DNA of 64,000 nucleotides from NCBI RefSeq assembly GCF_004123675.1, contig NZ_CP035417.1, forward strand, positions 797,501 to 861,500, in the 5' to 3' direction. The notes beneath the pieces are model-generated. The model worked only from the letters and a program-made list of their open reading frames with translations, was not told the DNA's origin and did no database searches. Positions 10,830 to 26,373 of this stretch are shown in pieces. Position 1 is the first letter of the stretch, and each line of letters opens with the position of its first letter. The DNA is from Leisingera sp. NJS204. GTDB taxonomy: Bacteria; Pseudomonadota; Alphaproteobacteria; Rhodobacterales; Rhodobacteraceae. A program made the position numbers and the translations under genes.

Positions 10830-12023
10830 TTACCCCTTCACCGCTTTCACGATCTTCTCCGCGCCGTCTTTCAGGTTGTCGGCGGCGATCACGTCGAGGC
10901 CGGAGGTGTTGATGATCTCCTTGCCTTTCTCGACGTTGGTGCCTTCCAGGCGGACCACCAGCGGTACTTTCAGGCCGACTTCCTTCACTGCGGCAACCAC
11001 GCCTTCGGCGATGACATCGCAGCGCATGATGCCGCCGAAGATGTTGACCAGGATGCCTTTGACCTGCGGGTCCGAGGTGATGATCTTGAACGCCTCAGTG
11101 ACCTTCTCCTTGGTGGCGCCGCCGCCCACGTCGAGGAAGTTGGCAGGCTCGGCCCCGTAGAGTTTGATGATGTCCATGGTGGCCATCGCCAGGCCGGCAC
11201 CGTTCACCATGCAGCCGATCTCGCCATCCAGCGCGATGTAGTTCAGATCGTATTTCGAGGCTTCCAGCTCTTTCGGGTCTTCCTCGGTGGTGTCGCGCAG
11301 CTCGGCCACGTCGGCGTGGCGGTAGACCGCGTTGCCGTCAAAGCCGACCTTGGCGTCCAGCACCTTGAGGCTGCCGTCGTCCGCCACGATCAGCGGGTTG
11401 ATCTCCAGCATCTCCATGTCTTTCTCGACGAAGGCTTTGTAGAGCTGGCCCATCAGCTTGACGCATTGCTTGACCTGCGCGCCTTCAAGACCGAGCGAGA
11501 AGGCGATGCGGCGGCCGTGGTAGGCTTGGTAGCCGGTGGCCGGGTCGACGGAGAAGGACAGGATCTTTTCCGGGGTGGCGGCGGCCACTTCTTCGATATC
11601 CATGCCGCCCTCGGTGGAGCAGACAAAGGAAATGCGCGAAGTCTGGCGGTCTACCAGCAGCGCCAGGTACAGTTCGGTCTGGATGCCGGAGCCGGCCTCA
11701 ATATAGATGCGGTTCACCTGCTTGCCCGCCGGGCCGGTCTGATGGGTGACCAGGGTGCGGCCCAGCATCTTCTTGGCTTCCTCGGCGGCTTCCTCAACCG
11801 ACTTGGTCAGGCGCACGCCGCCCTTTTCGCCGGCGTCGGCCTCCTTGAAAGAACCCTTGCCGCGGCCGCCTGCGTGGATCTGCGCCTTCACCACCCAGAG
11901 CGGGCCGTCAAGTTCACCTGCGGCGGTTTTGGCGTCTTCGGCTTTCAGCACCACTTTGCCGTCTGACACCGGAGCACCGTAGCTGCGAAGGAGGGCTTTG
12001 GCCTGATATTCGTGGATGTTCAT
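10830..12023 (-). CDS. sucC: Succinate-CoA ligase [ADP-forming] beta subunit
   Basis: A 397-residue ATP-grasp subunit. It starts [16 protein letters not shown], with the nucleotide-binding [12 protein letters not shown] near residue 46, EINPLIV near residue 196 and [10 protein letters not shown] in the C-terminal ligase domain. ATG at 12023 is chosen over an in-frame extension because the family begins exactly here. It is the first gene after a 300-base spacer containing paired GTGATCAC palindromes, so the suc-odh transcript most likely starts here. Confidence 0.96.
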
Positions 12024-12079
12024 CTGAAACTGTCCCGTCTGGCTGCAATTGTCTGGCTTCAATAGGCCGTCTTAAAGCC

Positions 12080-12167
12080 AAGTGTTAAAGGCTTTTTTGA
12101 CAGGGTGCGGGGAAATGATGAAGATTTTCGAGTTTTGTGATCACGGTTTTTGGGGGTGTGATCACAA
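12080..12167 (-). promoter_or_regulatory. Candidate sucC operator/promoter: two GTGATCAC palindromes 21 bp apart
   Basis: Two identical 8-bp palindromes lie at 12137-12144 and 12158-12165, each embedded in TTGTGATCAC/GTGATCACAA. Their starts are 21 bp apart, two helical turns. The nearer site ends 113 bases before the sucC ATG. A TTTAACACTT string on the minus strand (12080-12089) lies between the sites and the gene. The same pair with 20-bp spacing, and the same TTTAACACTT, occurs before sdhC. I infer a shared dimeric regulator, possibly GntR/FadR-like. Confidence 0.65.
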
Positions 12168-18630: not shown

Positions 18631-19638
18631 CTACTGGAAAACGGCGCTTTCCCACTCTTCGAGAAATGTCCGCCGCTTCAGTTTGTCCAAATAGGTAAGC
18701 AGCGCGGGTTCCAGAGCAATAGCCGACTGGCGAACACTGTCTTGCGCTGAGCCAAGGGGCGGCAGCTTGATGTGTTTTTCGCCAGCCTTGCTGGATTGCA
18801 GGAAGATCAGGTGGCGGATGAACGCGGCTGCAATCTGGGGGTTTGGTGCGTCTTTTGAAATGAAGACGGTCCGCATTATTGTAGTCGGAAAATCGGAAGG
18901 CAGGATGATCTGCAAACCATCATCCGGATTGGGGCGCGCCGCAGCATAGCTGCCAAGCACGTTATAGGCAACTGCGATAGTACCATTGGCGAGGTCATCG
19001 ATCATCTCGCCCGAACAGCAATAGAGGCGCACGCCCAGGCTTCCCATCACTTCCGTCAACCTCCAGTAGGTCTCGGAGGCGCGAGCATCCTGGGTGGCAA
19101 ACAGATATCCGACGCCGGACTTGCGAACATCATAGGTGCCGATCCGGTTGCGGAAGAAATCCGGCCGATCACGCATGGCCTGGATCAATGCCTGCCTGGT
19201 TTTTGGAACTTCATGTCCGGAAAAAGCCGCGCGGTTTATCACAATGGCAGCGGGTTCGGTGGTGAAGGCAAAAAGACTTTGCCGCCATTGTGCCCAATCA
19301 GGGACTTCCAGCGCCGGAACGGCACGGGCGTAGCCATCATTGGCAAGTTTGAGCTGAAGATCCATCGCGCTGGAGACCGCCAGATCGAACGCCTGCGGCG
19401 CCTGCCGGATCAACCTGTCTACTTCGACGGTTCCGGTGACCAGATATTCAACCGAGACATTCGGGTTCACCGCTAGAAAACTGGTAATGATTGGGGCGAT
19501 GAACGAGGTGTCGGTGCTTGAAAGCACCCGCAGGGTCCGGGTCGCGGATTGCCCTTCAAAGACTTGCCGGTCTTCCCAGTCTTGCGCGGCCGCCAGCAAC
19601 GGCCAAAGACAGATGATTACGCCGAAAAGATAACGCAT
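18631..19638 (-). CDS. Periplasmic solute-binding protein linked to the TctDE regulators
   Basis: A 335-residue exported protein of the type-2 periplasmic binding fold, similar to iron(III)/ABC-type binding proteins. The signal peptide ends near LLAAAQDW. TLRVLSSTDTSFIAPII, FDLAVSSAMDLQLK and VAYNVLGSY are typical fold segments. A CC pair lies near residue 202. No ABC permease or ATPase is nearby. Its gene overlaps the end of the histidine kinase gene by 22 bases. I infer that it presents a ligand to TctE and does not serve transport. Confidence 0.75.
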   Translation of the reverse strand: MRYLFGVIICLWPLLAAAQDWEDRQVFEGQSATRTLRVLSSTDTSFIAPIITSFLAVNPNVSVEYLVTGTVEVDRLIRQAPQAFDLAVSSAMDLQLKLANDGYARAVPALEVPDWAQWRQSLFAFTTEPAAIVINRAAFSGHEVPKTRQALIQAMRDRPDFFRNRIGTYDVRKSGVGYLFATQDARASETYWRLTEVMGSLGVRLYCCSGEMIDDLANGTIAVAYNVLGSYAAARPNPDDGLQIILPSDFPTTIMRTVFISKDAPNPQIAAAFIRHLIFLQSSKAGEKHIKLPPLGSAQDSVRQSAIALEPALLTYLDKLKRRTFLEEWESAVFQ

Positions 19639-20984
19639 GCGCCGCCTTCCGGTCTATTTGAAAGATCCAATGTCCCGCCATGCGCAACCGCCACATCCCG
19701 CGCGATCGTCAAGCCAAGCCCGGAACCGATGATGTTTTTGGCGTTTGCACCCCGGGTAAAACGTGACGCCAGGGTGCCGATCTCGTCCGGAGGGAAACCT
19801 TGCCCCTGGTCGCGGACTTCAACCTGCGCCCGGGGTCTCGACCTGATGCGGATATGAATGACAGTTTCGCTTGGCGCGTATTTGAGCGCATTGTCGATGA
19901 TGTTGCGGAGGGCGTTCTGAAGCAGGATCGGGTCGCCTGAAATCGGCACCGTAGTTTCGGTATCCAATCGCAGCTCTACATCTTTCATCTCAGCCACCGG
20001 TGACAGGCGCTGCACAAGTTCCTTCGTCAGATCACCCAGGTCAAGGTTCTGGCGTTCCAGATGATCGGCGCGAAATGTAATCATCGCATGATCCAGCAGC
20101 TGTCCGGCAGCGCGCGAACTTTCGTCGATTGCGCGCACCATGGCCCTTAATGCCTGGCGGTTTTCCTCCTTGCCGACGCGCTGCAAAGTTGCCTCGGCAT
20201 GGGACCGGACCGTGGCCAGTGGCGTGCGCACCCTATGGGCGGCTTCGGCGATGAAATCTTCGGATTGCTGCAGGGAGTGGTCGAGGCGTGTCATAAACCT
20301 GTTCAGAGAGGAGACCAGCGGGGCCATTTCCGACGGCACCGGCTGCGAGACCGGCCGCAGGTCCTGCGGCCCGCGGCGGGTCACCGACAGGGCAAGCCGC
20401 CTGAGCTGTCCAATGGTTGTGGAGGTTGCCCAGAACGACAGCAGTGTAGCCAGCAGAAAGAACCCCAGACCAAAAATTGCGACGTTGCGGGAAATCACGT
20501 TCAGCGTTCCGGCCAGAGCATCCTGGGTCTGGGCAATTGAGACCGTAATCCGGGTTTTGGCATCTGCCCCGATCAAGACACGCGATGCCGTGGCCAGGCG
20601 CATTTCGGCACCGCGGAACGCAATAGTCTGAAAGCCGGCCCTCTTTCCGGGCGGTATTTGCAAGCGCGGCAGGTCTTCATATCCCGACAACACGGTGTCA
20701 TCCTGATAGATCGCATAAAAAATCCGGTCATCGGATGCCGTCGCCAGCATGGCGAAAGACGCATAGGGAAAGTCGATTTCAACGGCGCCGTCACGCAGGA
20801 TGGCCGCGTCCAGTATTGATGTCACCGAGGCGTTTATGATGTTGTCCTGACCTCGCTGTGCAATTTGCGCCGCATAGCTCCGCGCCACAAAAAATAACAG
20901 AATGGCAAGCAGTGCAGCGCCGCCGATCAGGGTGATCGCCAGGCGGTTCCGCAGCGATCCTGAAACACGGAACGCATCACTCAT
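19617..20984 (-). CDS. tctE: Sensor histidine kinase, TctE type
   Basis: A 455-residue membrane sensor. TM1 is at about 16-36, a periplasmic 2CSK-type domain follows, TM2 is at about 165-185, then HAMP, HisKA with AEAAHRVRTPLA carrying the phosphohistidine, and an ATPase domain with NIIDNALKYAP, RDQGQGFP and GSGLGLTIAR. The ATG at 20984 overlaps the response-regulator stop by eight bases. Divergent tctCBA genes suggest it senses a tri- or dicarboxylate, perhaps through the co-encoded binding protein. Confidence 0.88.
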   Translation of the reverse strand: MSDAFRVSGSLRNRLAITLIGGAALLAILLFFVARSYAAQIAQRGQDNIINASVTSILDAAILRDGAVEIDFPYASFAMLATASDDRIFYAIYQDDTVLSGYEDLPRLQIPPGKRAGFQTIAFRGAEMRLATASRVLIGADAKTRITVSIAQTQDALAGTLNVISRNVAIFGLGFFLLATLLSFWATSTTIGQLRRLALSVTRRGPQDLRPVSQPVPSEMAPLVSSLNRFMTRLDHSLQQSEDFIAEAAHRVRTPLATVRSHAEATLQRVGKEENRQALRAMVRAIDESSRAAGQLLDHAMITFRADHLERQNLDLGDLTKELVQRLSPVAEMKDVELRLDTETTVPISGDPILLQNALRNIIDNALKYAPSETVIHIRIRSRPRAQVEVRDQGQGFPPDEIGTLASRFTRGANAKNIIGSGLGLTIARDVAVAHGGTLDLSNRPEGGACVIFSA

Positions 20985-21642
20985 GGTCCAACCGGTATCC
21001 AAGACCGCGATGGGTGGTGATCTTGAGGCTGGAGTTTTCAAGATGTTTGCGAAGCCTGCCTATATACACTTCAATCGCGTTTTCCGACACGTCCTCATCG
21101 TAGGAAAAGAGGCTGTCGGCCAGCTTCTGTTTCGGGAAAATCCGGCCAGGAGAATTGATCAGAAGTTCAAGCAGCCGCAGTTCACGATTGCGCAGGTTGA
21201 CGGTCTCGCCGCCAACCGCGAGGCGGCCTGCCACCGGATCAAAGGTCACGTCGCCGATGCGCAATACGGTTTGCGCAGTACCGGTCTTGCGTCGCAGCAC
21301 GGCGCGGCAACGCGCCTGAAGCTCGGCGTGGTCAAAAGGTTTGGTGAGATAATCATCCGCTCCGAGATCCAGCAGGCTGATTCTGTCGGAAACCTGGGAA
21401 CGCGCGGTCAGAACGATAACAGGTGTGTCCTTCTCCCGGGCACGGTGCTGTTTGAGAAACGTCCGGCCATCCCCATCCGGCAGCATGATATCCAGCAGAA
21501 TCAGATCATAATCGCCAACTTCGGAATAAGTGATGGCATCCCGGATTTTACACGCATGGTCAACCACATGACCGTCAAATTTCAACCGTGAACAAATCGC
21601 ATTTGCCAGGTCGGCATTATCTTCGATCAAGAGAAACTTCAT
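20977..21642 (-). CDS. tctD: Response regulator, OmpR family, TctD type
   Basis: A 221-residue regulator with a receiver domain (MKFLLIEDNADLA, phospho-acceptor D51 in LILLDIMLPDG, K near 101 in LTKPF). It has a winged-helix output domain (LRNRELRLLELLINSPG, ENAIEVYIGRLRKHL). It is first in the tctD-tctE-binding-protein operon. It faces tctC across a 106-base spacer that it most likely binds to activate the transporter. Confidence 0.92.
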   Translation of the reverse strand: MKFLLIEDNADLANAICSRLKFDGHVVDHACKIRDAITYSEVGDYDLILLDIMLPDGDGRTFLKQHRAREKDTPVIVLTARSQVSDRISLLDLGADDYLTKPFDHAELQARCRAVLRRKTGTAQTVLRIGDVTFDPVAGRLAVGGETVNLRNRELRLLELLINSPGRIFPKQKLADSLFSYDEDVSENAIEVYIGRLRKHLENSSLKITTHRGLGYRLDHE

Positions 21643-21748
21643 CAGGATTTACCCCGCTTTTTGCGGCGTGACAGGTCTGTGTCAGGTTGGCGTGTTTGAA
21701 TGTCTCAACTGAGCCGTCTTGCGGACAGTTGTCAAATGGGAGGAAAAA
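21643..21748. promoter_or_regulatory. Divergent control region between tctD and tctC
   Basis: A 106-base spacer between two divergent starts. TGACAGG and TGTCAGG appear within 20 bases (about 21669-21686), and GGGAGGAAAAA just before tctC is its ribosome site. TctD is the obvious candidate regulator. No clear perfect operator is seen. Confidence 0.4.
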
Positions 21749-22735
21749 ATGACGACATTCAAAATCGGCCGTCGCGTCCTTATGGCGGCCGCTGTTGCGG
21801 CGCTTGGTCTTGGAGCGCCGGCATTTGCGGGCGAAGAACCAGTCCTCGACAGTATTCATTTTCTGATTCCAGGCGGTGCCGGCGGCGGATGGGACGGCAC
21901 AGCCCGCGGCACTGGCGAGGCCCTGACCAAGGCTGGGCTTGTCGGCAACGCATCCTACGAAAACATGTCCGGGGGCGGCGGTGGCAAGGCCATCGGCTAT
22001 CTCATCGAAAACTCTGAAAGCAACCACGGCACTTTAATGGTCAACTCGACACCCATCGTGATCCGGTCACTGACAGGTGTGTTTCCGCATAACTTCCGCG
22101 ATCTGACCTTGGTTGCCGGAACAATCGGTGATTATGCCGCGCTGGTCGTTGGCAAGGACAGCCCTATCGACTCGATGGAAGACCTTTTGGCCGCCTTCGA
22201 CGCCGATCCGCGCGCAACTGCGATTGGCGGTGGTTCGGTTCCCGGCGGCATGGATCATCTGGTCGCCGCGATGGTGATGGAAGCGGCGGGCAAGGATCCG
22301 CTGGACGTCAAATACATTCCGTACGATGCGGGCGGCAAAGCCATGGCCGCGCTTTTGTCGGGTGAAATTGCAGCCCTGTCGACCGGTTTTTCGGAAGCAG
22401 TGGACCTGGCGGCTGCGGGCGAGATCAAAATCATCGGGGTGACATCCGAGGAGCGCGTAGCGGCAGCGCCGGATGCAATGACGATGAAAGAACAGGGCAT
22501 CGGTACGACATTTGTGAATTGGCGCGGTTTCTTCGGCGCGCCGGGGCTGCCGGCGGACAAGGTCACCATGTACCAGGCGGCACTTTCAAAGATGTATGAC
22601 ACGCCGGAGTGGGAGGAAGTCCGGGGCCGTAACGGCTGGGTCAACATCCACAACTCGGGCGATGCGTTCAAAACTTTCCTGGAAGAGCAAGAGCAAGTCA
22701 TCGGCAATTTGATGAGAAAGCTGGGCTTCCTGTGA
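21749..22735 (+). CDS. tctC: Tripartite tricarboxylate transporter substrate-binding protein
   Basis: A 328-residue periplasmic receptor of the TTT family, with a signal peptide ending near GAPAFAGEE. DSIHFLIPGGAGGGWDGTARG near the mature start and YIPYDAGGKAMAALLSGEIAA are typical TctC elements for carboxylate binding. The ATG at 21749 is preceded by GGGAGG, and an in-frame extension is rejected. It heads tctCBA. Citrate or another carboxylate is the likely ligand; the exact one is unknown. Confidence 0.9.
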   Translation: MTTFKIGRRVLMAAAVAALGLGAPAFAGEEPVLDSIHFLIPGGAGGGWDGTARGTGEALTKAGLVGNASYENMSGGGGGKAIGYLIENSESNHGTLMVNSTPIVIRSLTGVFPHNFRDLTLVAGTIGDYAALVVGKDSPIDSMEDLLAAFDADPRATAIGGGSVPGGMDHLVAAMVMEAAGKDPLDVKYIPYDAGGKAMAALLSGEIAALSTGFSEAVDLAAAGEIKIIGVTSEERVAAAPDAMTMKEQGIGTTFVNWRGFFGAPGLPADKVTMYQAALSKMYDTPEWEEVRGRNGWVNIHNSGDAFKTFLEEQEQVIGNLMRKLGFL

Positions 22736-22789
22736 AGCCTGGACTGGCAGAGCGGGTGATCGCTCTGCTCGTTGCAACGGGAGGGGAAA

Positions 22790-23272
22790 ATGGCACTTGA
22801 TCGATGGATTGCACTGATATTGCTAGGTATTTGCCTGACCTATGGCTTTACCGCCTGGTTCACGATGGATATGGGGCTTGCACCGTTCATGCAGCGCAAC
22901 CCGATCTGGCCAAGCACCTTTCCCAAAGTGCTTTCAATCCTGGGCGTGCTTGCCTCGCTGGCTGTTCTTCTGGGGCTCGAAAAGGGCGACGTGACGATTG
23001 GCGAAATCGATTACCGGCGGCTGGGCGAATACAAGCTAGGGCAGGCCATCCTGCTGCTGGCGCTGATGGTTGCCTATGCGCTGTGCCTGCGGCCGCTGGG
23101 CTTTATCGTTTCAACCGCTGCCTTTCTGATCCTCGGCTCGTTCGTTCTGGGAGAGCGCAAGTGGCATATCATGATCATCGTTGCGCTGATCGCCACATTG
23201 GTTGTCTGGTACCTGGTGCAACAGGTCCTTGGCATTTACATGCGCCCGCTGCCGGGCTTTTTCGGAGGCTGA
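22790..23272 (+). CDS. tctB: Tripartite tricarboxylate transporter small membrane subunit
   Basis: A 160-residue membrane protein with four predicted helices, starting MALDRWIALILLGICL. LRPLGFIVSTAAFLILGSF is typical of TctB. The ATG at 22790 has GGGAGGGG upstream. It supports TctA in the inner membrane. Its stop codon is one base before the tctA start. Confidence 0.88.
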   Translation: MALDRWIALILLGICLTYGFTAWFTMDMGLAPFMQRNPIWPSTFPKVLSILGVLASLAVLLGLEKGDVTIGEIDYRRLGEYKLGQAILLLALMVAYALCLRPLGFIVSTAAFLILGSFVLGERKWHIMIIVALIATLVVWYLVQQVLGIYMRPLPGFFGG

Positions 23273-23273
23273 T

Positions 23274-24788
23274 ATGCTCGAAGGACTTCTCATCGGTCTG
23301 CAAACGGCGTTCTCAATCCAAAATCTTTTGATGGTGATCGGCGGTTGCCTGATCGGTACTTTTATCGGCATGCTTCCCGGTCTTGGGCCAATGTCGATCA
23401 TCGCCATCATGATTCCGGTGGCGATTTCAATGGGCGATCCATCGGCGGCATTGATTTTGCTGGCCGGTGTCTATTACGGGGCCATTTTTGGCGGTTCAAC
23501 CTCGTCGATCCTGCTGAACGCTCCAGGCGTCGCAGGAACGGTAGCTTCGAGTTTTGACGGATATCCGATGGCCAAGCAGGGCAAGGCCGGCAAGGCCCTG
23601 ACCATTGCTGCCATTGCCAGCTTTTGCGGCGGCACCGTGGGGGCGCTGCTGTTGATGGTTTTTGCCCCCGCCCTGTCCTCGGTCGCGCTTCTCTTTCACT
23701 CGGCTGAGTATTTTGCACTGATGGTCGTCGGTCTGTCGGCGATTGCGGCCTTCGCTGGCACCGGGCAGGTTGCCAAGGCTCTATTGATGACTGTGCTTGG
23801 CCTGATCATGGCGACAGTAGGGGAGGGCGCACTGTTTAACCTGCCGCGCTTCACGATGGGGATCATGGATCTGCAATCCGGCTTCGGTTTCATCACTCTT
23901 GCCATGGCGATGTTCGCCCTGCCCGAAGCGCTCTTTCTGGTGTTGAAGCCAAAGGAGACACATGACGGCAGCGATGACGAGATCAAGGATTTGCGGATCA
24001 ACCGTACCGAGGCCAAGGCGATCGCACCAGTGATTGGCAGGCAGTCGCTACAAGGGTTCTTCATCGGAGTTCTGCCAGGCGCAGGCGCCACGATCGCCAG
24101 CTTTCTTGGATATGCGGTCGAACGTAACATCGCAACCAAGGACGAGCAGGCTGAATTCGGCAATGGCTCGATCAAGGGCCTTGCCGCCCCGGAAACAGCC
24201 AATAACGCCGCCTGCACCGGTTCATTTGTGCCTTTGCTGACCCTGGGCATTCCCGGTTCGGGCACGACCGCGATTCTGCTGGGCGCGCTCATCGCGCTGA
24301 ACGTAACACCCGGCCCGCGTTTGATGATTGACGAACCGCAGGTGTTCTGGGCAGTGATTATGTCGATGTTTATTGGCAATCTGGTGTTGCTCGTACTGAA
24401 CCTGCCGTTGATCCCCTACATCGCCAAGGTGCTTTTGGTTCCGCGCAACTACCTGATCCCCTTCATTCTCTTTTTCACGCTGATGGGGGCGTATATCGGT
24501 CAAAACAACGCGACCGAATTGCTGATCCTGGTGGGGTTCGGCATCTGCGCCACGGCACTGAGGTTTGCGGACTATCCACTTGCCCCCCTGCTTATCGGGT
24601 TCATTCTCGGCGGCATGCTCGAAGATAATTTCGCCCGTTCGATGCAGCTCTATGATGGTGTTTCGTTCATTTGGGAACGCCCGATTACAGTCGGCCTTCT
24701 CGTGGTCGCGGGACTGCTTGTCGTTCTGCCCGGTTATCGGGCAAGGCGGGCCGCATTGCGTGCCTCAGGCATAGCTGATGGTGACTAG
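23274..24788 (+). CDS. tctA: Tripartite tricarboxylate transporter large permease
   Basis: A 504-residue permease with about twelve helices. FIGMLPGLGPMSIIAIMIP near residue 31 and the related GVLPGAGATIASF near 275 are the duplicated TctA signature. GGSTSSILLNAPG, TANNAACTGSFVP and GIPGSGTTAILLGA complete the family pattern. ATG at 23274 has GGAGG upstream. No terminator hairpin was seen after the stop codon. Confidence 0.93.
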   Translation: MLEGLLIGLQTAFSIQNLLMVIGGCLIGTFIGMLPGLGPMSIIAIMIPVAISMGDPSAALILLAGVYYGAIFGGSTSSILLNAPGVAGTVASSFDGYPMAKQGKAGKALTIAAIASFCGGTVGALLLMVFAPALSSVALLFHSAEYFALMVVGLSAIAAFAGTGQVAKALLMTVLGLIMATVGEGALFNLPRFTMGIMDLQSGFGFITLAMAMFALPEALFLVLKPKETHDGSDDEIKDLRINRTEAKAIAPVIGRQSLQGFFIGVLPGAGATIASFLGYAVERNIATKDEQAEFGNGSIKGLAAPETANNAACTGSFVPLLTLGIPGSGTTAILLGALIALNVTPGPRLMIDEPQVFWAVIMSMFIGNLVLLVLNLPLIPYIAKVLLVPRNYLIPFILFFTLMGAYIGQNNATELLILVGFGICATALRFADYPLAPLLIGFILGGMLEDNFARSMQLYDGVSFIWERPITVGLLVVAGLLVVLPGYRARRAALRASGIADGD

Positions 24789-25840: not shown

Positions 25841-25925
25841 ATTTGTGATCACTAATTATTTGCTGTGATCACAAGTCGTGGCCTTTTAGCGCCAACAGAG
25901 CAATTTCCCGTGTTTTTTAACACTT
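25841..25925 (+). promoter_or_regulatory. Candidate sdhC operator/promoter: two GTGATCAC palindromes 20 bp apart
   Basis: GTGATCAC occurs at 25845-25852 and 25865-25872, within TTGTGATCAC and TGTGATCACAA. The nearer copy ends 117 bases before the sdhC ATG. TTTAACACTT lies at 25916-25925. Core sequence, spacing and distance to the gene copy the sucC upstream region (113 bases, 21-bp spacing). I infer that one regulator controls sdh and suc. Confidence 0.65.
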
Positions 25926-25989
25926 CCTTCGGGTGACACGCCGTAAAAATCGGCTAAAACGTCGTCAGCCAACCTGAAAAGGAGCCAAC

Positions 25990-26373
25990 ATGGCCGATGT
26001 CAATCGGGGCAACCGCCCGCTTTCGCCGCATTTGCAGGTCTACCGGCCGCAGCTGACCTCCCTGACGTCGATCCTGACCCGGATCACCGGCAATGCGCTG
26101 ATCGTCTCGGCGCTGCTGATTGCCTGGTGGTTCCTGGCCGCCGCAACCTCGCCTGAATACTTCGCCATTGCCAATGGCGTGCTGACCAGTTGGTTCGGCG
26201 ATCTGGTGATGACCTTGTCGGCGCTGGGTCTTTGGTATCACACGCTTGCAGGTATCCGGCACCTGATCTGGGACAATGGCTATATGCTGGATCTGGACCA
26301 GGCCGAGAAGCTGGGCTGGTTTGTGATCACAGGATCAGTGATCCTGACCGTTCTGACCATCATTATCGTCTAA
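25990..26373 (+). CDS. sdhC: Succinate dehydrogenase cytochrome b556 subunit
   Basis: A 127-residue membrane anchor with three helices. RPLSPHLQVYRPQLTSLTSILTRITG is the quinone and heme region. The axial heme histidine is in WYHTLAGIRHLIWD near residue 85. It inserts complex II into the inner membrane. AAAAGGAG precedes the ATG. It is first in sdhCDAB. Confidence 0.94.
   Translation: MADVNRGNRPLSPHLQVYRPQLTSLTSILTRITGNALIVSALLIAWWFLAAATSPEYFAIANGVLTSWFGDLVMTLSALGLWYHTLAGIRHLIWDNGYMLDLDQAEKLGWFVITGSVILTVLTIIIV

Follow-up and report, generated by a model that had tools for sequence, protein, structure and literature searches.

Paired GTGATCAC sites before sucC and sdhC in Leisingera: probable AkgR-type operators followed by an operator-phased A/T-tract ladder

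The TCA cycle is a hub of carbon and energy flow, and the Rhodobacteraceae are abundant in the sea. Two TCA operons of Leisingera sp. NJS204, headed by sucC and sdhC, lie in the 64,000-nucleotide stretch of DNA analysed here (the window), and each is preceded by two identical copies of the palindrome GTGATCAC. This arrangement raises the question of which protein binds these sites and how it could act on promoters that start several helical turns away. A preliminary description of the window had proposed one operator common to both operons and a single regulator encoded elsewhere. The features of the two promoters, in window coordinates, are as follows.

12158-12165, minus strand: distal GTGATCAC of the sucC operator, exact match; pair kept in 23/24 sucC upstream regions
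12137-12144, minus strand: proximal GTGATCAC of the sucC operator, exact match; pair kept in 23/24
12089-12136, minus strand: A/T-tract ladder from the sucC operator to the -35 box; operator-phased A/T with a period of ~10 bp in 50 regions
12083-12088, minus strand: probable sucC -35 hexamer TTAACA, deduced from column conservation; overlaps TTTAACACTT
12060-12065, minus strand: probable sucC -10 hexamer CTATTG, deduced with a 17 bp spacer; weak match
10830-12023, minus strand: sucC, succinate-CoA ligase beta subunit (NCBIfam NF001913, above cut-off)
25845-25852, plus strand: distal GTGATCAC of the sdhC operator, exact match; pair kept in 71/73 sdhC upstream regions
25865-25872, plus strand: proximal GTGATCAC of the sdhC operator, exact match; pair kept in 71/73
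25873-25932, plus strand: A/T-tract ladder from the sdhC operator to the -35 box; operator-phased A/T with a period of 10.5 bp in 92 regions
25933-25938, plus strand: probable sdhC -35 hexamer GTGACA; RTGA(C/T) box in 88/92 regions
25955-25960, plus strand: probable sdhC -10 hexamer TAAAAC, from column conservation; 16 bp spacer
25990-26373, plus strand: sdhC, succinate dehydrogenase cytochrome b556 subunit (TIGR02970, above cut-off)

The palindromes are spaced by 21 bp before sucC (12137-12144 and 12158-12165) and by 20 bp before sdhC (25845-25852 and 25865-25872). By coordinate arithmetic, 113 bases separate the nearer site from the sucC start codon (minus-strand ATG at 12023), and at sdhC (ATG at 25990) the gap is 117 bases, so that the positions, spacings and distances first described all hold. 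The gene before sucC was identified as malate dehydrogenase (mdh) with a curated model, and the sucC operator sits within the mdh-sucC gap. The window contains 8 copies of GTGATCAC against 0.90 expected from shuffles, and the 5.04 Mb genome contains 228, about three times the 71 scaled from the window shuffles; the reversed motif was a weak control for genome and family counts, since it holds CTAG, which is rare in many genomes. Searching the 5.04 Mb genome for GTGATCAC-N8-16-GTGATCAC (spacing 16-24) returned exactly two places, the sucC and sdhC sites, compared with 0.09 pairs expected by chance if 228 sites were placed randomly. The earlier remark that the paired arrangement is peculiar to these two operons can thus be extended to the whole genome for exact pairs at these spacings. 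The extended motif TTGTGATCAC occurs at 22 places in the genome, five of which are outside open reading frames: two at sucC, two at sdhC and one at the candidate regulator gene introduced below. The remaining 17 fall inside frames, which were picked by length and third-position GC, a rough method that leaves some of them doubtful. Codon use (such as Val-Ile-Thr) may be part of the cause of the genomic excess of GTGATCAC.

To assess conservation independently of the motif, a search with SdhB served to collect loci of relatives, of which the 80 closest among 591 were kept; SdhC was found in 73 of these and in none of the other 7. A pair with a spacing of 19-21 precedes sdhC in 71/73 of these loci, and a pair precedes sucC in 23/24 of those with SucC. 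Loss of the pairs in relatives had been named in advance as the result that would speak against a shared operator, and the pairs proved to be kept. Together, the window and genome counts, the 0.09 expected pairs and this conservation rule out chance as the origin of the pairs, and the conservation and the sole genomic occurrence support one operator and one regulator for both operons. One locus without a pair at sdhC (L043) has one at sucC, while single sites only were present at sdhC in L051 and at sucC in L088. The larger totals of 92/94 for sdhC and 50/51 for sucC are inflated by loci chosen for containing a pair (L131-L160 and L193-L215), and 71/73 and 23/24 are the fair figures.

On a wider scale, an exact pair (spacing 19-21) was present in 265/295 genomes of the family, nearly all from different genera, and most of them hold two. 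Among genomes of the class outside the Rhodobacteraceae it was found in 2/380 (385 searched, of which 5 belong to the family), once inside an open reading frame and once ahead of a gene for a GntR protein that shares 30% identity with the candidate regulator. This last pair (L191, genome G440, positions 992-1020) has a spacing of 21 bp; motif and pairing thus occur with a distant relative of the candidate. When two mismatches were allowed at spacing 21, at least 23 of 28 selected genomes gave matches, mostly in coding-like letters, so that this search was of little use; among the matches listed, G040 alone showed two clear near-pairs. In this genome, which has the orthologue described below and no exact pair, the two near-pairs have one mismatch each and lie on the same contig at a distance of 7.5 kb.

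We then considered what is known of the palindrome. Rhodobacter sphaeroides, presumably of the same bacterial family as Leisingera, has a regulator, AkgR, which we take to be RSP_0981 and which, in a 2015 study (Imam et al., mBio), reportedly directly activates TCA genes. GTGATCAC is listed among the AkgR binding sites in R. sphaeroides, where AkgR is termed a transcriptional activator, and the same palindrome is proposed for a Pseudomonas GntR regulator 32% identical to AkgR (PMC6365646). RSP_0981 is a GntR regulator predicted to control sucCD, sdh and sucAB-lpd (PMC4344238). The regulator left unnamed in the preliminary description is therefore already known in outline, since AkgR is reported to bind this site and the genome encodes a likely orthologue of AkgR: as that description had anticipated, the gene lies outside the window, at G000:C1:607114-607764. 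Of 26 GntR-domain matches in the genome, each taken with its locus of ~3 kb, this one alone holds two GTGATCAC, 44 bp apart and directly before the gene. Its product combines an N-terminal GntR winged helix (PF00392, 52.9 bits) with a C-terminal FCD domain (PF07729, 60.1 bits), both above cut-off, which is the layout of the FCD (FadR) branch of the GntR superfamily. In Gemmobacter aquatilis (L054), a gene 77% identical to the candidate follows sdhB at a distance of ~6.4 kb, which fits the nearness in number of RSP_0974-6 and RSP_0981.

The candidate and the pair also occur together across the family. A match at E <= 1e-20 was found in 277/295 genomes, and the pair was present in 262/277 genomes with the gene versus 3/18 without it. 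At E <= 1e-70, a threshold chosen after seeing the match list, the pair was present in 258/265 genomes with the orthologue versus 7/30 without it (Fisher P = 3e-22 from a hand count, with genomes treated as independent and phylogeny uncorrected). The exceptions comprise 7 genomes with the orthologue and no exact pair, and 7 with a pair and no orthologue, three of which are at least 90% complete. In the class draw, a threshold of 1e-40 gave matches in 6/289 genomes, four from the family and two at 39-42% identity, the latter about as distant as the genome's own paralogue of the candidate, which is 38% identical and lies at G000:C1:4198039-4198653. Judging from motif, function, co-occurrence and the sdh-linked Gemmobacter homologue, the candidate is most likely the orthologue of AkgR. 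The sucC and sdhC pairs are in this respect most likely a further case of a known regulon, with regulator and motif known in outline from R. sphaeroides.

The regulator gene carries the motif in a different setting. In each of the 30 most similar orthologue loci, a GTGATCAC precedes the start codon used by 16-22 nt. With a search form allowing 13-23 nt between TTGAC (or a close variant) and GTGATCAC, 27 of the 32 given regions fitted, at 18 nt (25), 17 nt (1) or 19 nt (1), and in these 27 the start codon follows GTGATCAC by 8-11 nt. GTGATCAC thus fills the space from the -35 box to the start codon of the regulator gene, which is the place of a repressor, and a site inside the regulator's own promoter would fit autorepression. 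Among less similar orthologues, no GTGATCAC was found in the 150 nt before the gene in L054 or in the 3-kb locus of L239 (78% identical).

The geometry at sdhC and sucC was derived from upstream regions aligned on the proximal site. For sdhC, this alignment revealed a conserved GTGACA-N16-TAAAAC-like promoter; for sucC, the conserved columns suggest TTAACA-N17-CTATTG, a less sure assignment than that of sdhC. Transcription starts estimated by hand near 25967 (sdhC) and 12053 (sucC) would place the centres of the operator sites at about -98 and -118 for sdhC and at about -88 and -109 for sucC. The preliminary description had also pointed to TTTAACACTT between site and gene at both operons. It is indeed present at both window promoters, where it overlaps the probable sucC -35 box and lies upstream of the conserved sdhC -35 box, but it is not conserved, being absent from the last 160 nt upstream of the genes in relatives (0/73 sdhC, 0/24 sucC). 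We therefore rejected TTTAACACTT as a shared third element and regard it as a coincidence of the Leisingera genome, confined to the window promoters.

Spacing between the two sites is narrowly distributed, with values of 21 (76), 20 (15) and 19 (1) in 92 sdhC regions; the 50 sucC regions with a pair gave 53 spacings of 21 (50) and 20 (3), three of these regions being triple arrays of 21+21. For pattern-chosen loci the range of 19-21 is fixed by the search pattern, and the SdhB-chosen loci, with free spacing, also gave 19-21. At sdhC, the -35 box follows the proximal site at a distance of 57-60 (76), 69-71 (6), 77-80 (5) or 48 (1) in the 92 regions, with nothing at 49-56, 61-68 or 72-76, so that the groups are about one helical turn apart; no box was found with the search form in 4/92 regions. 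This form was chosen with the alignment in view, and its minimum distance of 45 nt served to skip early chance matches. In 88/92 regions the operator therefore lies upstream of the -35 box in fixed helical phase, as at class I-type promoters. On a tree built quickly, with a simple model, from SdhC, SdhD and the first part of SdhA, the distance class changes at least 8 times (48 left out). The corresponding P of 0.0026 for 8 in-phase changes is rough: it treats the changes as independent, uses classes named after the distances had been seen, includes one member (77) that deviates by 2-3 nt, and excludes the sequence at 48.

Between operator and promoter, A/T content rises and falls in register with the operator. 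Peaks after the proximal site were located at about +1, +11, +21, +31 and +42 in 92 sdhC regions and at 0, +11, +21, +31 and +41 in 50 sucC regions, and extra peaks near +53 and +63 are present in the longer sdhC classes (6 and 5 regions). At period 10-11 the amplitude was 0.120 for sdhC and 0.151 for sucC, compared with maxima of 0.041 and 0.055 over 2000 rotations as the null, and none of 2000 column permutations (0/2000) reached the amplitude of the ladder. Among the periods tried, the best were 10.5 at sdhC and 9.5 (0.154) to 10 (0.151) at sucC. The ladder holds in 80 sdhC and 41 sucC regions under 60% identity. Its steps are A-tract-like, with AA+TT making up 71% of A/T-only steps versus 57% across the loci, and TA 9.4% versus 11.4%. 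Against shuffles that keep the runs, A-tract phasing reached a mean percentile of 0.86 at sdhC (57/92 over 0.9) and 0.83 at sucC (21/50 over 0.9). In estimated numbering, the hand-placed peaks would lie near -52, -63, -73, -83 and -93 at sdhC and near -42, -52, -62, -72 and -83 at sucC, positions that match the known helical phase of polymerase alpha contacts. Degenerate further AkgR sites were rejected as the cause of the ladder: in the column consensus after the proximal site, no GTGATCAC-like block stands where a further 21-bp step would put it, and the placing of the A/T peaks differs from that in the spacer between the two sites.

Several observations bear on whether the ladder belongs to AkgR at all. 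It might instead be a general feature of strong promoters in the family, or a binding region for nucleoid proteins. Some periodicity above the rotation null does persist when regions are anchored on the start codon (0.027-0.043 for sdhC, 0.068-0.075 for sucC) and upstream of the distal site (0.032 and 0.040, respectively), and mdh upstream regions, among the few other promoters compared, are more periodic than random pieces (single-region medians: sdhC 0.180, sucC 0.153, mdh 0.140, random pieces 0.120). The excess over mdh was nonetheless clear for sdhC (P = 9e-10) and smaller for sucC (P = 0.014), in regions that are also richer in A/T. Operator anchoring gives the higher amplitude (0.120/0.151 versus at most 0.043/0.075 with start-codon anchoring), and no ladder was seen after 69 unpaired GTGATCAC in 80 loci (185/500 rotations as high) or, in 27 akgR promoters, over the 60 nt leading up to the -35 box (208/500 rotations as high). 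We therefore regard a ladder unrelated to AkgR as a serious but less favoured reading. Alternatively, the operator might work by repression or DNA looping: GntR regulators are mostly repressors, and at the regulator gene GTGATCAC overlaps the core promoter, as a repressor site would. At sdhC and sucC, however, a long stretch of DNA separates the sites from the conserved promoter boxes downstream, the ladder and the whole-turn distances fit contact with polymerase, and the 2015 study reportedly also calls AkgR an activator. The same term is used in PMC6365646. On balance, repression or looping at these two operons appears unlikely.

The identity of the binding protein invites a similar comparison. 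Another GntR regulator of the same specificity, for instance the 38% identical paralogue at G000:C1:4198039, could occupy the sites in place of AkgR as the main binder, given that specificity appears to be shared beyond close relatives: GTGATCAC is also proposed for the Pseudomonas regulator only 32% identical to AkgR (PMC6365646), and the L191 pair precedes a 30% identical GntR gene outside the family. Against this, family genomes such as G001, G006 and G011 have two pairs yet a single match at E <= 1e-20, which is the orthologue, and the paralogue locus (L024) has no GTGATCAC within ~1.5 kb, whereas the orthologue has GTGATCAC in its promoter. A main binder other than AkgR is accordingly quite improbable. 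We thus favour, with good though not complete confidence, the reading in which the paired GTGATCAC are operators of the AkgR orthologue, a GntR/FCD protein, with two bound dimers, far-upstream activation, a ladder towards the promoter and autorepression at the regulator's own gene.

In this model, each GTGATCAC would bind one dimer of the AkgR orthologue, and two dimers, separated by two turns of the helix and so facing the same side of the DNA, would probably bind cooperatively. The sdhC and sucC operators would then serve as far-upstream activator sites in a class I manner, and the far-upstream position, the whole-turn distances and the ladder together fit activation by polymerase contact. 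The A/T ladder may hold operator and polymerase on one face, either through intrinsic bending or by offering minor-groove footholds for the alpha C-terminal domains, while GTGATCAC inside the promoter of the regulator gene would lead to autorepression. More tentatively, and short of even odds in our estimation, these features could amount to a grammar used throughout the family, in which a two-dimer AkgR operator is joined to polymerase by an A/T track that changes only by whole turns; the ladder, and not the operator alone, would make a site an activator site, and a lone site in the regulator's own promoter would act as a repressor site.

In class I activation and at UP elements, the activator site is helically phased with the promoter and A-tracts lie in phase with polymerase alpha contacts, and the class I sites known so far are in most cases closer to the promoter than -88. 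The Leisingera promoters share the helical phasing, and differ in a ladder 4-6 turns long whose length varies between species by whole turns. A functional parallel among FCD-type GntR proteins is CitO of Enterococcus faecalis, an activator of a carboxylic-acid pathway with sites upstream of its promoters (PMC4746285). CitO protects one region per promoter, at -41 to -65 or -51 to -74 (PMC4746285), whereas the Leisingera sites are paired, lie at an estimated -88 to -118, and have a phased A/T ladder between them and the promoter. NanR of Escherichia coli also places GntR dimers on a repeated operator, but as three dimers on a three-fold hexamer repeat and for repression (PMC8012715), while in Leisingera there are two (in relatives rarely three) palindromes ~21 bp apart. 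The AkgR regulon of R. sphaeroides is alike in target operons (sucCD, sdh), GTGATCAC sites and a GntR regulator (PMC4344238, PMC6365646); in Leisingera, TTGTGATCAC outside frames marks only sucC, sdhC and the promoter of the candidate regulator. The accessible text of the AkgR and GTGATCAC literature searched, a survey to which the original AkgR study did not belong, held no description of the paired spacing, the autoregulatory site or the ladder, and the promoter grammar, that is, the operator-phased A/T ladder with whole-turn distances, may be the new part of this regulon.

These results give the sdh and suc operons a named candidate regulator and define an operator for which any genome can be scanned. 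They also suggest a geometry, open to experimental test, by which an FCD-type GntR protein could activate transcription across about nine helical turns, and the whole-turn variation of the ladder amounts to a helical-phasing experiment already carried out by evolution on a natural collection of promoters.

A few further arrangements were observed among the loci. By sucC or sdhC lay 28 of the first 30 pair loci, the exceptions being L157 (positions 1501-1529), where the pair lies between mdh and a gene reading as sucA and not before sucC, and L153 (genome G042, positions 1501-1529), where it precedes a gene reading by eye as fumC. The latter suggests that the regulon can recruit another TCA step, fumarase (FumC). 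Among 8 genomes listing three pairs, three have a triple array at sucC and one has the pair before the fumC-like gene; the extra pair of G238 is located within a gene, and G230 and G276 each have one pair next to genes reading as unrelated. The triple GTGATCAC at 21+21 bp before sucC was seen in L201, L205 and L215 (genomes G285, G135 and G191). A third GTGATCAC 56-57 bp upstream of the sdhC pair was present in nine loci, mostly from Ruegeria (L031, L032, L035, L039, L048, L056, L064, L077 and L081). In the window itself, positions 18631-24788 between the two TCA operons hold, by reading, a two-component system beside tripartite tricarboxylate transporter-like genes.
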